Shown here in pieces: positions 8,751 to 24,077 of a stretch of DNA of 64,000 bases (its first letter is position 1; each line of letters opens with the position of its first letter). The stretch comes from Actinomycetes bacterium (GTDB lineage: Bacteria > Actinomycetota > Acidimicrobiia > Spongiisociales > JAHEDJ01), in NCBI GenBank assembly GCA_024641245.1, contig JAHEDK010000009.1, positions 1-64,000 of the forward strand, read 5' to 3'. The notes under the pieces were generated by a model. The model searched no databases and was not told the DNA's origin. It worked only from the letters and a program-made list of their open reading frames with translations. A program made the translations under genes and the position numbers.

Positions 8751-8837
8751 ATGAATGGCGATTGGCCCGGCTGGACGCCGGCGATTGCCCGAACCGTGGC
8801 TCCTCGTATTGACCCCAAGTACGCTGGTAGGCCATGA
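8751..8837 (+). CDS. Possible 28-aa leader peptide coupled to the antiporter start
   Basis: A 28-codon reading frame begins MNGDWPGWTPAIARTVAPRI and ends with a TGA that overlaps the antiporter ATG (CCATGA at 8834-8837). GAGGAG lies 10 nt upstream of its ATG. The overlap would allow translational coupling. No homologue is recognised, and a chance frame cannot be excluded. Confidence 0.35.
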   Translation: MNGDWPGWTPAIARTVAPRIDPKYAGRP

Positions 8838-9511
8838 ACCAGCCTCCGCTTGTCGCCGCCCAAGAGGCCGGGCTCCTCAACTCGGAGGTCAGCATCGTAC
8901 TTCTGCTGGCCGTTGCCGCCGTGGTTGCCGTTGCCGTTCGGCGAATCCGCCTCCCTTACACCGTTGCACTGGTAGTGGTCGGACTGGGTCTGGCGTTCCT
9001 ACCGTCCGACATCATTCAGATTGATGTGAGCGCCGATCTGATCCTGGCCGTTCTGGTACCGCCGCTGTTGTTCGAAGCGACCCTCCACATCTCGTGGGCT
9101 CGACTGCGGCGTGACCTGGCGCCCGTCCTCGTGTTCGCCCTCATCGGCACGTTGCTCGGGGCGTTCGTGGTGGGGGGATTGATCGCGAGTTTCGTGGATG
9201 GCGTGCCCTGGGCGGCGGCCGTGGCATTCGGGGCACTGATCTCGGCGACGGACCCGGTGGCCGTGATCGCTTTCTTCCGTTCAATCGGGGTCTCGAAGCG
9301 ACTGACGATTCTCGTCGAGGGAGAGAGCCTATTCAACGACGGAGTCGCCTTCGTGGTGTTCATCCTCGCCCTGGCGGCGGCCGGACCCGGCGCCAGCTTC
9401 TCGCTCGGCTCGGCGATCGGACAGTTCGTCATCGACGCGTTCGGCGGTTTGGGCATCGGCCTCATCCTCGGGTACGTCGTTTCGTCGCTGTATGCCATCG
9501 CCGCAGCCGGC
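8834..9511 (+). pseudogene. Truncated CPA1 (NhaP-type) Na+/H+ antiporter
   Basis: The N-terminal half of a monovalent cation/proton antiporter. Transmembrane helices with PPLLFEATLHISW, the ion-site motif ISATDPVAVIAFFRS and LVEGESLFNDGVAFVVF are all typical of NhaP/CPA1 proteins. Homology stops near residue 226 (SLYAIAAAG, about position 9511), where a complete protein would need at least 150 further residues. The frame stays open to 10543, but the rest has no membrane character and runs antisense to a real gene, so it is read-through rather than protein. This marks a rearrangement breakpoint at the left edge of the island-like region. Confidence 0.75.
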
Positions 9512-9795
9512 CTTCGGAGCGCCGCCGGCCTGCCTCAGGGCAAGCAGTTCACAGCAACGTGGAGCGCACTGCGTATCTATCGCATTCGCTCATCGCTGAG
9601 GCGTCCGATTCGCCGGGTGACGGACGTTGGTTTTGCACCGAGCCACGCGTTATCGCTCAGACCTGGTGATCTCAGTGAATGTTGGTTAGCGGACCTGAGG
9701 CCACATGGACCGTTGGCCGGTTCCGCATTGGCCGTTCCTTCGTGGTTTACCCGAGAGCGGTACGCCAGTCACTCCGAACGACCGGCACTCATGAG
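9512..9795. other. Junction region without a recognisable gene
   Basis: 284 bp between the antiporter breakpoint and the zinc-ribbon gene. No coding similarity, tRNA fragment, terminal inverted repeat or copy of the tRNA-Glu duplication was seen. Likely recombination debris. Confidence 0.5.
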
Positions 9796-9990
9796 TCACC
9801 GGGCGGGGAAGGGGTACCACTGCACGCCGGCGCCCAGCACCTTACGACACGAGGGGCAGAAGAACAGGTATCCCTGTCCGATCCCGAATGGTCCCCTGGG
9901 CTTCTTGACGAAGATCTCGGTGAGTTCGGCCTCGCAGTGCGGGCAGACGGCGGCCAGATCCTCGCGGCGGGTGGACTCGATGCGGCTCAC
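9796..9990 (-). CDS. Small zinc-ribbon protein
   Basis: A 64-aa protein with two cysteine pairs, CPHC (about residues 16-19) and CPSC (about 45-48), separated by a basic/aromatic stretch (FVKKPRGPFGIGQGYLFF). This is a compact zinc-ribbon layout. Family and function were not recognised. It lies on the same strand as the cyclase-like gene, 88 bp downstream of it, and could be its last operon member. The reading frame on the opposite strand (antiporter read-through) is not coding. Confidence 0.6.
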   Translation of the reverse strand: MSRIESTRREDLAAVCPHCEAELTEIFVKKPRGPFGIGQGYLFFCPSCRKVLGAGVQWYPFPAR

Positions 9991-10078
9991 AACTCATCCA
10001 TCATCACCTCCGGCGCTTGCGCCAACCAGAGGAAAAGGACCCGATTGCCACTCCACTCGGAGCTACCACTCGAATTCG

Positions 10079-11053
10079 CTAATGTTGGCGGCCGGCGGCT
10101 CGGAGCACACGAAGGGCGCGGATCGTAACCCAGGGGTTTGTGCGGGTCTTCCCACCAGGCCCCCATTGGGCGAAGGTGCAATTGCTGCAGATCTCGGTTG
10201 CGGTCCGGGCCCGTCTCACCTCCATCGGGAACCCACCGTCCGCAGTGCGCTTGGAAAGGAGCAGGTCGAGGGCGCGATTGCAGCGCGGGTCGTCGGGGCA
10301 GCCCATGTCGGCCATAAGCTCCAGGACAAGAAGAACGTCGAAGAAACGGATGGGGAATCCAATCTTGTCGGGTCGGGGTCCCCAAGTGGGCACGATTGGG
10401 GCGCCACTGCGGTGGAAGAGCAGGTGGTGTTCCAACAGAAGCTCGACACCGCGTTCGAGCGTCTGGGCGGCGGTCTTGTCGCCTGTCGCCTGCACCCAAG
10501 CCGCCAGCCCCCGCAGGCCCAGCACGGTCTCGACGAAGGATGAGTGGCGCGCTCGAGGACGCACATCACAATTCCAACCTCCATCGGGCCACTGCAGTCT
10601 GGCGAGCCGATCCGCCAGAGCCTGCAGTCGCTCGTCGATCAGGCCCAGTTGGAAACTGGCCCAGAGAACGTTGCCCTCCATCGAGGCACAGCGTCTCACC
10701 CGCTCGGGCTGCCCCTCGATATGCCTGGTCCAGTTCGGTTTCAGAAATGCCGGCGAGAGGATCCATGCGAACACGACCTCCTGGACCTGTTCGAGGCGGA
10801 GGTCTCCACCGGGATGCCCCCGTTCGGCCAGTTGCACGAGAGCCCAGTGAGCGCCTTGCCATTTCCGATAGGCATGGCGGGGGTCAACGAAACTGCCGTC
10901 GATTACGGCAGTGCAGTCTGGACTGGTGCGCACTTCTTCGGCCAGGGTGCGCATGTCGACAGCGTCCGGGTCGGCCCCGTCCAACACGAGCCGAGCCTGA
11001 TACCGGACCGCCGGATCGTCCCACGTGCGGAGTCGGTCGACCACTGTCTCCAT
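10079..11053 (-). CDS. Squalene-cyclase/prenyltransferase-fold alpha-alpha barrel protein
   Basis: A 324-aa protein built of helical repeats with QW-like motifs: LARLQWPDGGWNCDV near residue 160 and LLLSKRTADGGFPMEV near residue 275. These are typical of the terpenoid cyclase/prenyltransferase toroid. The DxDD motif of squalene-hopene cyclases is not visible and the length is about half that of a full cyclase, so this is a single-barrel relative of unknown substrate. The start is set at ATG 11053 (METVVDRL); the frame is open further upstream inside the hydrolase gene but shows no similarity there. The hydrolase gene ends 49 bp upstream, suggesting one transcript. Confidence 0.65.
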   Translation of the reverse strand: METVVDRLRTWDDPAVRYQARLVLDGADPDAVDMRTLAEEVRTSPDCTAVIDGSFVDPRHAYRKWQGAHWALVQLAERGHPGGDLRLEQVQEVVFAWILSPAFLKPNWTRHIEGQPERVRRCASMEGNVLWASFQLGLIDERLQALADRLARLQWPDGGWNCDVRPRARHSSFVETVLGLRGLAAWVQATGDKTAAQTLERGVELLLEHHLLFHRSGAPIVPTWGPRPDKIGFPIRFFDVLLVLELMADMGCPDDPRCNRALDLLLSKRTADGGFPMEVRRARTATEICSNCTFAQWGPGGKTRTNPWVTIRALRVLRAAGRQH

Positions 11054-15930: not shown

Positions 15931-16025
15931 CCGACCTTCAGACGCGCAGAAACCCCCGCTGAGCAGGGGTTTCGCGTGGTAGCCCCGACCAGATTCGAAC
16001 TGGCGTTACCGGCTTGAGAGGCCGG
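15931..16025. repeat. attR-like copy, overlapping tRNA-Glu(CTC) 3' end and terminator
   Basis: The 95-bp partner of 13208-13302. It contains the functional 3' half of tRNA-Glu(CTC) and the downstream terminator. The two copies bracket 2.6 kb holding the TetR gene, two membrane proteins and the RHH gene. Confidence 0.75.
15949..15973 (-). terminator. Terminator hairpin downstream of tRNA-Glu(CTC)
   Basis: GAAACCCC and GGGGTTTC pair (8 bp, 9-nt loop), 7 nt past the tRNA 3' end; read on the minus strand the hairpin ends in GGGGTTTC. The hairpin is also preserved in the duplicate at 13226-13250. Confidence 0.6.
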
Positions 16026-16052
16026 CGTCCTAGGCCTCTAGACGACGGGGCC
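15980..16052 (-). tRNA. tRNA-Glu (anticodon CTC)
   Basis: A 73-nt cloverleaf: acceptor GGCCCCG/CGGGGCT, D arm GTCTAGAGGCCTAGGAC, anticodon loop CTCTCAA with CTC, T loop TTCGAAT, discriminator A. The CCA is not encoded. The 3' half is duplicated at 13257-13302, marking it as an integration target. Confidence 0.95.
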
Positions 16053-16075
16053 GTTGTCGCCCTTCACAGGGCTCG

Positions 16076-16147
16076 CTCGGGGGGAAGGACTCGAACCCTC
16101 AATGACAGGACCAGAACCTGCTGTGTTACCGATTACACCACCCCCGA
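16076..16147 (-). tRNA. tRNA-Gln (anticodon CTG)
   Basis: A 72-nt cloverleaf: acceptor TCGGGGG/CCCCCGA, anticodon loop TTCTGGT with CTG, T arm GAGGG-TTCGAGT-CCTTC, discriminator G. It lies 23 bp upstream of tRNA-Glu on the same strand and is probably co-transcribed with it. Confidence 0.93.
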
Positions 16148-16214: not shown

Positions 16215-16835
16215 TCAGCGACCGGCAGCGAGCGCGACGAGTTGCTCGAATTCCTCGTTCGACTTCACCCCGGACGATCGCAGTATCACCGTGTTGTCCG
16301 CCCCGACAACGACCCAGGCGGGAACGCTGGGGATCCCGAGCGCCTGATCGATCGAGCCTGTTCTGTCATCCAGAATGACCGGCGCCGACCACCCTTCCCG
16401 TGCGAACCAGGCCGCCGGCGGGTAGTTCTCCCGTGACGCTTCCACACGGGTCGAGATGGCGTAGATGTCCACGTCCGCTGGAAGGCCGTTGGCATCGAAG
16501 TACTCCTGAAGGCCCGAGACCTCGGACCGGCAGAACTGTCACCAATGCGCCAGGTTGAGCAGGAGCTTGGGTCGGCCATCGTTGGTGATGACGACCGGAT
16601 CACCTTCGAAGTCAACTCCCTCGATCTCGGGCAAAGCGAGCCCGACCGCCCCATCGACGACAGTTGCGTCGAAAGTCGGAAGTCCGGCGCCGCGGACGGT
16701 GACATCCCCGTACACCGTGCCCTCGTCGGTGCTCAGCAGAGTGGCCACCACGGCCAGCACCACAATCGCCCCGCCAACTCCCCAAAACAGCGGCGCCATG
16801 CTTTGCTTTCGCTTCCGGGACTTGTACTTCGCCAT
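16215..16835 (-). CDS. TlpA/thioredoxin-like selenoprotein (in-frame TGA = Sec99)
   Basis: A predicted 206-aa membrane-anchored thioredoxin-fold oxidoreductase. The N terminus is basic (AKYKSRKRKQ) with one membrane helix at about 13-34, placing the domain outside the cytoplasm. The active site reads LAHW-U99-Q-F-C102: the TGA at 16541-16539 replaces the first cysteine of the CxxC motif. Thioredoxin features resume after it (SEVSGLQEYF, DVDIYAIS, PVILDD, cis-Pro172 in PSVPAW, VVVGADNTV). A SECIS-like hairpin starts 10 nt after the TGA. The start ATG 16835 has GAGGAAG 2 nt upstream. It is divergent from a paralogous selenoprotein. Naive translation gives two fragments, 16539-16883 and 16215-16472. 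Confidence 0.88.
16511..16528 (-). promoter_or_regulatory. Bacterial SECIS-like hairpin (selenoprotein 1)
   Basis: On the minus strand, 10 nt after the TGA: GGUCCG-AGGUCU-CGGGCC, a 6-bp stem (one U-G wobble) and 6-nt loop. The GGUCU in the loop and the 16-nt TGA-to-loop distance closely match the E. coli fdhF SECIS (17 nt), which binds SelB. Confidence 0.8.
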
Positions 16836-16863
16836 CGCTTCCTCGTTTCGCGGAGATCGACCG

Positions 16864-16869
16864 TACAAT
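16864..16869 (+). promoter_or_regulatory. Candidate -10 box (TACAAT) for selenoprotein 2
   Basis: TACAAT lies 23 bp before ATG 16893 in the 57-bp gap shared by the two divergent selenoprotein genes. No clear -35. The gap is short enough for coordinated control of both genes. Confidence 0.4.
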
Positions 16870-16892
16870 CGTCCGCAACACATTAGGGGAAC

Positions 16893-17558
16893 ATGACAGA
16901 CCAGAACACCTCCAAGACACGCACCGTCCTGATCTTCGGCGTAGCGGCCGCGCTAGTAATACTCGCCGGGGTGACCGCCATCTTCATTTCCGGCGGCAAC
17001 GACCCGGATCCTGTGGCCGGCACACCAACCGCAGACGGAAGCGCTGGGGTTGCCATCAGCGAGACCCGCCCGGTAACCATCACCGGCAACCCATTGCCTG
17101 CGATGCCGGAGCAAGGAACGGACGTCGCACTCGGATCCCCGATGCCCGAACTGAGCGGCCAGTCGTTCGATGGAACACCGGTCGAGATCAAGAACGATGG
17201 CCGGCCCAAGATCATCCTGTTCCTGAGCCATTGGTGACCGCACTGCCAGTCCGAGGTCTCGGACTTGACCACCTACTGGTCCGCCAATGAACTTCCGACC
17301 GATGTCGACATCGTCAGCATCTCCGGGAGCGCACGACCGGGAGAATCCGAATACCCACCGAGCGCCTGGCTCGCCGATTGGCCCATACCGGTGCTCGTCG
17401 ACGACGAGTCGGGCTCGGCCATGCGGAGTTACGGGCTCACCTACTTCCCGTTCTCGGTGCTCGTGGACGGATCGGGCACCGTTGTCACCCGCCACGTCGG
17501 ATCGCTGACCGGCCCCGACATCGAGACCGCCATCCTGGCCCTGCGAGAGCAAGGGTGA
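16893..17558 (+). CDS. TlpA/thioredoxin-like selenoprotein (in-frame TGA = Sec115)
   Basis: A predicted 221-aa membrane-anchored thioredoxin-fold protein paralogous to its divergent neighbour. One membrane helix at about 11-33 is followed by a low-complexity linker. The active site is LSHW-U115-P-H-C118, with the TGA at 17235-17237 in place of the first redox cysteine. The domain continues in frame with SEVSDLTTYW, DVDIVSIS, YPPSAWLADW, PVLVDDESGS, cis-Pro186 in TYFPFSVLVD and a C-terminal helix. The gene terminates at a separate TGA (17556-17558), so TGA is both sense and stop here. A SECIS-like hairpin begins 10 nt after the Sec codon. AGGGGA precedes ATG 16893 by 2 nt. DsbB lies convergently downstream. 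Confidence 0.9.
17248..17265 (+). promoter_or_regulatory. Bacterial SECIS-like hairpin (selenoprotein 2)
   Basis: 10 nt after the TGA: AGUCCG-AGGUCU-CGGACU, a perfect 6-bp stem with the loop AGGUCU. The core GTCCGAGGTCTCGG is identical to the partner gene, while the outer stem pairs differ in ways that keep pairing (A-U here, G-C there). Confidence 0.85.
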
Positions 17559-17564
17559 AAACAA

Positions 17565-17655
17565 GAGGTCCTAGGTTTAGGTCGTAGGTTCTGAGTTCCC
17601 GACAGATCAGATTCCTCGACGGTAAAACCCAGAACCTATTACCTAGAACTTCTGG
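17565..17655. repeat. Convergent-junction repeat (AGGTTCT family), both orientations
   Basis: Between selenoprotein 2 and dsbB. The left half reads AGGTTTAGGTCGTAGGTTCT on the plus strand; the right half (AACCCAGAACCT then ACCTAGAACTT) is the same motif on the minus strand. Each half therefore forms the 3' tail of its adjacent gene. Confidence 0.65.
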
Positions 17656-17660
17656 CTTAC

Positions 17661-18236
17661 CTAAGACTCCTGGTCCCCGCTGCTTCCTCGATTTCTGTTC
17701 GCCCATCCGGCCATGTAGAGCAGCGTGAAGATCATCGCGAATCCGACGAGCGACATGAACGGAAACGAGATGAAACCGAACTGCCAGATGTAACGCTCGG
17801 TACACGAGGCATCGACCCCGCAGAAGCCTGATTCGAGGCTCGGATTCAGCTGAAGCACGTACTGGTAGGCGGCCAGCGCGGCACCGATCACGACGAGTGG
17901 ATAGGAATACAACCGGATTCCCAAGTCCTTGCGATATGCGGCGATGGCGAGGATGATCGCCAGCGGGTACATCGCGATCCGCTGATACCAGCAGAGATCA
18001 CATGCGGCGAACTCCGCCACTTCGGAGTAGTAGAGGCTCCCCACCATGGAAACCGCCGCAATGAACGACCCAAGCCACAAGGCAGTGGGAGCTACCAGGT
18101 CGACCGCTGCGTCCCTGAACCGGGCGATGGCGGGCGACCACCTCGCCGCCGCCATGACGGCCACGACGCCGACGACGCCCGCCAGCGCAGCCAGTGTCAG
18201 CAACGCGAAGAAGATTGAGACCGTTTCAACACTCAT
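17661..18236 (-). CDS. dsbB: DsbB-like disulfide bond formation protein
   Basis: A 191-aa four- to five-helix membrane protein of the DsbB/BdbC family, which oxidises an extracytoplasmic thioredoxin-like partner and passes electrons to quinone. The first redox pair is Cys79-Cys82 in CDLCWYQR and the second is Cys139/Cys145 (FCGVDASC), both placed in loops as in the family. An extra N-terminal helix makes it longer than BdbC. ATG 18236 is used; an ATG three codons upstream (18245) is possible. It is convergent with selenoprotein 2, so a functional partnership with the selenoprotein pair is a strong contextual inference. Confidence 0.88.
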   Translation of the reverse strand: MSVETVSIFFALLTLAALAGVVGVVAVMAAARWSPAIARFRDAAVDLVAPTALWLGSFIAAVSMVGSLYYSEVAEFAACDLCWYQRIAMYPLAIILAIAAYRKDLGIRLYSYPLVVIGAALAAYQYVLQLNPSLESGFCGVDASCTERYIWQFGFISFPFMSLVGFAMIFTLLYMAGWANRNRGSSGDQES

Positions 18237-18305
18237 GAACGGCATTCTTCCACAGTCGGCACCACGCGACGGCATCGAGCCTCTGCCGGTCAGTTAGCCT
18301 GAGAA

Positions 18306-24045: not shown

Positions 24046-24077
24046 TCCACCAGCGGGCGGCATCGGAATCGGCGTCG

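Follow-up and report, generated by a model that had tools for sequence, protein, structure and literature searches.

The locus described here belongs to an uncultured actinobacterium and was analysed as part of a stretch of 64,000 nucleotides, to which we refer as the window. It is organized around two genes placed back to back in divergent orientation, both of which, as judged from their sequence, encode membrane-anchored thioredoxin-like enzymes containing an in-frame UGA codon. Gene 1 (16215-16835, minus strand) extends from an ATG at 16835, a start (MAKYKSRKRKQS) that is kept across the genus, to a TGA at 16217-16215 and codes for a predicted thioredoxin-fold selenoprotein of 206 residues with the motif HWUQFC, in which selenocysteine (Sec) would occupy position 99. 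Gene 2 (16893-17558, plus strand) extends from an ATG at 16893 to a TGA at 17556-17558 and codes for a protein of the same predicted kind with 221 residues, where the equivalent motif HWUPHC contains the putative Sec115. Each protein carries a single N-terminal hydrophobic helix of membrane-spanning length, which is predicted to comprise residues 16-34 in the product of gene 1 (LFWGVGGAIVVLAVVATLL, 16734-16790, minus strand) and residues 12-30 in the product of gene 2 (VLIFGVAAALVILAGVTAI, 16926-16982, plus strand), with the latter helix encompassing residues 10-32 in a structure model. The two genes are paralogues sharing about 40% identity over the whole alignment and 42% over the domain. 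Their starts are separated by 57 bp (16836-16892), a region that is recognisable by sequence comparison in four of four species of the genus and that presumably serves as common upstream or promoter region of the pair, and the sequences GAGGAAG and AGGGGAA, one in front of each ATG, are similar to ribosome-binding sites. Immediately downstream of gene 1, the minus strand contains two tRNA genes (15980-16147). On its other side, the pair is followed by a dsbB gene of the BdbC type (17661-18275, minus strand), which is convergent with gene 2, matches the Pfam DsbB family and encodes intact cysteine pairs in its CDLC and CGVDASC motifs. The segment between gene 2 and dsbB (17560-17660) contains a repeat with arms resembling CCTAGGTTTAGGTCGTAGGTTCTGAGTTC and AACCCAGAACCTATTACCTAGAACTTC, which is possibly a shared terminator, and a similar motif seems to be present near 24060.

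The assignment of both proteins to the TlpA type in the preliminary description holds for the fold. In an AlphaFold model of the product of gene 2 with a pLDDT of 87.6, the Sec is placed immediately N-terminal to the first long helix in the soluble domain, and structural matches of this model are of the ResA/TlpA/CcmG/DsbF type, including ResA with a TM-score of about 0.8 on the target and a ResA variant engineered to contain a CPHC motif (3c71). At the level of families, the relationship is more distant. Gene 2 matches Redoxin (PF08534) above the cut-off (E=1.4e-9), whereas its scores fall short of the curated NCBIfam cut-offs for StoA (43.9 bits, cut-off 210), DsbE (31.5, 123), ResA (27.5, 170) and TlpA (23, 230). 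Gene 1 shows weak matches to AhpC-TSA and DsbE-like families, located just below the cut-off in case of AhpC-TSA. DsbA-type Pfam domains (PF01323, PF13462) were not matched at E<=0.001 and a search of plasmids retrieved distant TlpA relatives only. The dipeptide enclosed by the active site residues differs between both copies, being QF or PV in one and PH or PQ in the other. Among 118 homologues containing cysteine in place of Sec, CPHC is the commonest motif (89/118), which contains the dipeptide of DsbA.

The in-frame TGA in the redox motif, as initially noticed, was found in both genes, at 16541-16539 in gene 1 (HW-TGA-QFC, codon 99, minus strand) and at 17235-17237 in gene 2 (HW-TGA-PHC, codon 115, plus strand), and the reading frames remain open for a further 107 and 106 codons, respectively, in line with the more than 100 codons claimed. 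UGA also acts as terminator, although the dual use had been ascribed to only one of the genes; since both end in TGA, the codon is used in two ways in each of them. All 118 Cys-type homologues, which originate from Actinomycetota, Chloroflexota and other groups, carry Cys at the Sec position (encoded by TGC in 92 and TGT in 26 cases), as had been proposed as a check, with the ratio of 118/118 reflecting that these homologues were selected for having W-C-x-x-C at this place and thus a standard to which exceptions may still exist. Three further species of the genus, whose proteins are 93, 71 and 72% identical to gene 2, retain the pair in divergent orientation together with both UGAs. The ratio of dN/dS ranges from 0.07-0.20 after the UGA, with 0.20 as maximum in all comparisons, versus 0.07-0.41 before it, and is similar or lower downstream of the codon in most comparisons. 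Beyond the UGA, both genes thus remain under purifying selection, with substitutions strongly favouring synonymous sites. A sequencing error, which the preliminary description had considered as potential refutation, is ruled out because independent genomes share the UGA, and the recurrence of the codons in three further species, the universal Cys in the selected homologues and the low dN/dS beyond the UGA together exclude chance or error as cause.

The components required for Sec incorporation, for which a search had been suggested, are all encoded in the genome. We found one SelA (E=1.4e-110), a SelB of 600 residues that overlaps the 3' end of selA and was identified from its sequence and its position after selA rather than by a profile search, a tRNA-Sec with the anticodon UCA and SelD (E=8.8e-120). 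The selD gene (L159, G000:C70:172097-173026) is a selenoprotein gene itself, with an in-frame UGA at the catalytic position (HGSGUACK). Of 59 sampled relatives, 52 encode a SelA that exceeds the cut-off; Sec decoding is therefore common in the order whereas the Sec form described here is rare.

Both UGA codons are followed by a hairpin with the features of a bacterial SECIS element (bSECIS), which reads GGUCCGA-GGUC-UCGGGCC in gene 1 (16511-16528, minus strand) and AGUCCGA-GGUC-UCGGACU in gene 2 (17248-17265, plus strand), the two being related by a compensatory change from A-U to G-C. Its seven base pairs, the loop GGUC and the distance of 17 nt between UGA and loop are the same in every Sec-type gene, and the loop of four nucleotides, the spacing and an energy of -9.2 kcal/mol for the core in gene 2 agree with a published model, which describes a loop starting with G, a spacing of 16-37 nt and an energy of <= -7.5 kcal/mol (PMC13188914). 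The core CCGAGGTCTCGG is present in 11 of 11 Sec-type and in none of the 118 Cys-type genes. When searched in 395 genomes of the class, the pattern UGA-N13-core occurs in 14 places, which include the 11 Sec genes and three others, compared to two for a reversed-pattern control, and in the organism's own genome the combination of UGA and SECIS is confined to exactly two places, both corresponding to the UGAs of genes 1 and 2. A looser pattern (UGA-N17-GGTC) had proven too unspecific, with 325 matches in the same genome versus 183 in the control, and was abandoned in favour of the exact core. A mechanical scan of the window detected 12 further frames combining a UGA with a hairpin, which lack a redox context and were judged to be due to chance. 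In the alignment of the hairpins, 77 of 77 pair cells are formed and one pair shows the two-sided change from A-U to G-C. The covariation score was reached by 30 of 500 shuffles, which makes this a weak test with modest covariation because the hairpin is nearly invariant (five of seven pairs do not vary at all); comparing Sec and Cys genes for the presence or absence of the element is more telling. A proline located five residues behind the second Cys occurs in 100 of 118 Cys forms and is replaced by serine in 11 of 11 Sec forms. The idea that the SECIS would have forced the loss of this conserved residue was dropped as unproven, since the proline is likewise missing from 18 Cys forms, among them the most similar ones (family f4). 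The prediction of selenoproteins has thus withstood the examinations that were accessible to computation, of the Sec machinery, the Cys homologues and the UGA in independent genomes, and we are close to certain that both genes encode real selenoproteins.

A phylogenetic tree of 129 proteins unites all Sec forms and a single Cys form in one group with a support of 96/75. The distribution of the Sec label on this tree requires two changes, compared to 10.7 after shuffling, for which one gain of Sec from Cys and one reversion to Cys in the gene L015 of genome G018 provides the simplest reading. In the reverted gene, the 3' arm of the hairpin is lost whereas TCCGAGGT, which covers the larger part of the 5' arm and the beginning of the loop, is retained. 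Genes 1 and 2 are found in two subclades. As judged from the tree, the pair arose by duplication of one Sec-type ancestor, and since both subclades hold members of other families this event is probably older than the genus. The divergent arrangement of the redoxins is found only inside the genus. In other genomes, dsbB usually comes first and a single redoxin gene or two of them lie behind it on the same strand.

What the preliminary description had missed is the link to DsbB. When considering homologous loci whose upstream flank measures 1.2 kb or more and defining linkage by the presence of dsbB within 300 bp on the same strand, a co-directional dsbB is located directly upstream in 58 of 66 loci, at a distance of <=291 bp with a median of 102 bp, and these loci span Actinomycetota and Chloroflexota; dsbB beside gene 2 is therefore not incidental. 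The order dsbB-redoxin or dsbB-redoxin-redoxin is shared by most Cys genomes and by the Sec genomes G047 and G255, where the Sec-type gene directly follows dsbB. The genome, which is 87.6% complete, contains one DsbB, the protein encoded at this locus, and no VKOR was found in it. In two relatives of the order (G005 and G006), dsbB resides beside a Cys-type homologue and a DsbA-like protein of the Thioredoxin_4 type was not found, leaving the redoxin family as best candidate for a DsbB partner in these organisms. The genus itself has kept an open frame of about 490 residues with two DsbA-like Thioredoxin_4 domains (G000:C63:53426-54565), which is absent in the two tested relatives of the order and could be an alternative partner of DsbB.

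The linkage to DsbB favours an oxidative function over a reductive one as in TlpA. We consider a pair of membrane-anchored extracytoplasmic selenoproteins, each acting as a DsbB-coupled thiol oxidase similar to DsbA, as the likely explanation of the locus, and the coupling, provided that the proteins contain Sec, is likely as well in view of gene neighbourhood, motif and fold. It is strongly supported that SelB and tRNA-Sec read the UGA as selenocysteine, directed by the bSECIS directly after the codon, and in such a system the inserted Sec would serve as the attacking residue. The resulting Sec-Cys selenenylsulfide would oxidise thiols of substrates before being itself re-oxidised by the neighbouring DsbB, which would pass electrons to quinone. 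Sec would presumably accelerate the exchange of thiols in an active site that consists of CPHC in most relatives, and two copies might be kept to divide labour, for example as oxidase and isomerase. A more comprehensive reading, towards which we lean only slightly, describes a quinone-linked DsbB system in which the role of DsbA is filled by two selenocysteine enzymes, constituting a selenium-based oxidative folding outside the cytoplasm that originated once from CPHC-type enzymes, was lost once and left a remnant of the SECIS. Several points count against these proposals. Compared to two cysteines, the combination of Sec and Cys is usually more reducing, which argues for an isomerase or reductase activity or a purely kinetic benefit. 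The closest folds in the structural comparison include the reductants ResA, CcmG and TlpA. Within the genus of the window, dsbB runs convergent to gene 2 and does not form an operon with the redoxins, and DsbB could instead be served by the two-domain Thioredoxin_4 protein of the genus.

Alternatively, the proteins could be real selenoproteins that function as reductants or isomerases akin to TlpA, ResA, CcmG or DsbC. Supplied with electrons by, for example, a CcdA-type protein, they would reduce or rearrange disulfides, cytochrome c apoproteins or the cysteines of CuA sites, while the neighbouring DsbB would serve another thiol protein or oppose the pair. This possibility, which we rate as unlikely, is favoured by the good match of the fold, the weak hits to DsbE, ResA and TlpA models, the generally lower redox potential conferred by Sec and the other DsbA-like candidate in the genus, but it is at odds with dsbB as conserved immediate neighbour across two phyla, with the curated TlpA, ResA and DsbE cut-offs that are not reached and with CPHC as commonest motif. 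Considerably less probable is a UxxC site mainly devoted to the reduction of peroxides, as in Prx-like thiol:disulfide oxidoreductases, for a defence of the envelope against oxidants. The matches to the AhpC-TSA and Redoxin families are compatible with this role and Prx-like UxxC selenoproteins form a catalogued family (PMC13188914), but a WU..C motif where the first long helix begins corresponds to the arrangement in thioredoxin and TlpA instead of the TxxC/TxxU of Prx, and the linkage to dsbB would be left unexplained. Pseudogenes, assembly errors, a UGA decoded as a different amino acid or plain read-through, for which it could be said that UGA terminates many ordinary genes here and that gene callers would split both reading frames, were rejected as exceedingly improbable, being contradicted by the conservation of both UGAs in each of four species, the purifying selection after it, the complete Sec machinery, the exclusive SECIS hairpin and the termination of both genes at UGA.

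Our preferred reading of DsbB-coupled selenoproteins resembles known systems in parts. It would probably work like DsbA-DsbB and BdbD-BdbC, where a quinone-linked oxidase of the DsbB type is likewise accompanied by a thioredoxin-fold protein, here from a family in which CPHC is the usual motif, yet the pair lacks a DsbA-family Pfam domain, is ResA-like and contains Sec in place of Cys. With TlpA, ResA and CcmG (DsbE) it shares the fold, the N-terminal anchor and the location of the WCxxC site, but it is distinguished by Sec at the attacking position, CPHC in its relatives, the neighbouring dsbB and scores far below the family cut-offs. MPT53/DsbF of M. tuberculosis and SdbA of S. gordonii are extracytoplasmic TlpA-type folds of Gram-positive bacteria that are linked to disulfide formation; both are among the structural matches but contain Cys only, and their similarity does not indicate the same partner. 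To our knowledge, selenium-based chemistry is not generally described for partners of DsbB, and a search of the open-access literature for co-occurring terms retrieved no description of a selenocysteine-containing one. Similarly, a coupling to DsbB, a divergent pair of paralogues, a clade of single origin and a SECIS remnant were not found in the open-access literature, which was screened mostly by co-occurrence of terms. The kind of protein is already known, since UxxC selenoproteins of the 'Redoxin family (PF08534)' and a 'thiol-disulfide isomerase-like (cd02966)' type are catalogued in a 2026 review (PMC13188914). As described there, these proteins equally contain UxxC with Sec at the first Cys position in a redoxin or TlpA-type domain and were predicted from Cys/Sec pairs, while the passages that list them mention neither a linkage to DsbB nor a paired arrangement. 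The review also describes selenoprotein operons such as grdA-grdB, SAO and Tso, where several adjacent selenoprotein genes belong to one pathway (PMC13188914), whereas here the neighbours are divergent paralogues.

A very oxidising Cys pair is the defining feature of DsbA-like oxidases, whereas Sec normally increases both the reducing character and the speed of such a site. If an enzyme with Sec is coupled to DsbB, it would thus test whether the formation of disulfides is limited by rate and not by potential. The clade as a whole offers a compact natural experiment, in which Sec was gained once from Cys, a SECIS embedded in the reading frame stayed nearly invariant, a gene was duplicated and one reversion preserved half of the element.

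A second family of thioredoxin-like selenoproteins is encoded in 12 genomes of the order (L120-L131, for example L126:3718-4092, minus strand), although none was seen among the matches in the present genome. Its members carry an EWU(P/S)xC motif and their own conserved hairpin ACGGG-AGUUG-CCCGU after the UGA. Elsewhere in the window, an open reading frame at 8834-10543 starts like a cation/proton antiporter and continues with apparently out-of-frame sequence that is antisense to the next gene, possibly as a consequence of a truncation, a frameshift or an assembly join.
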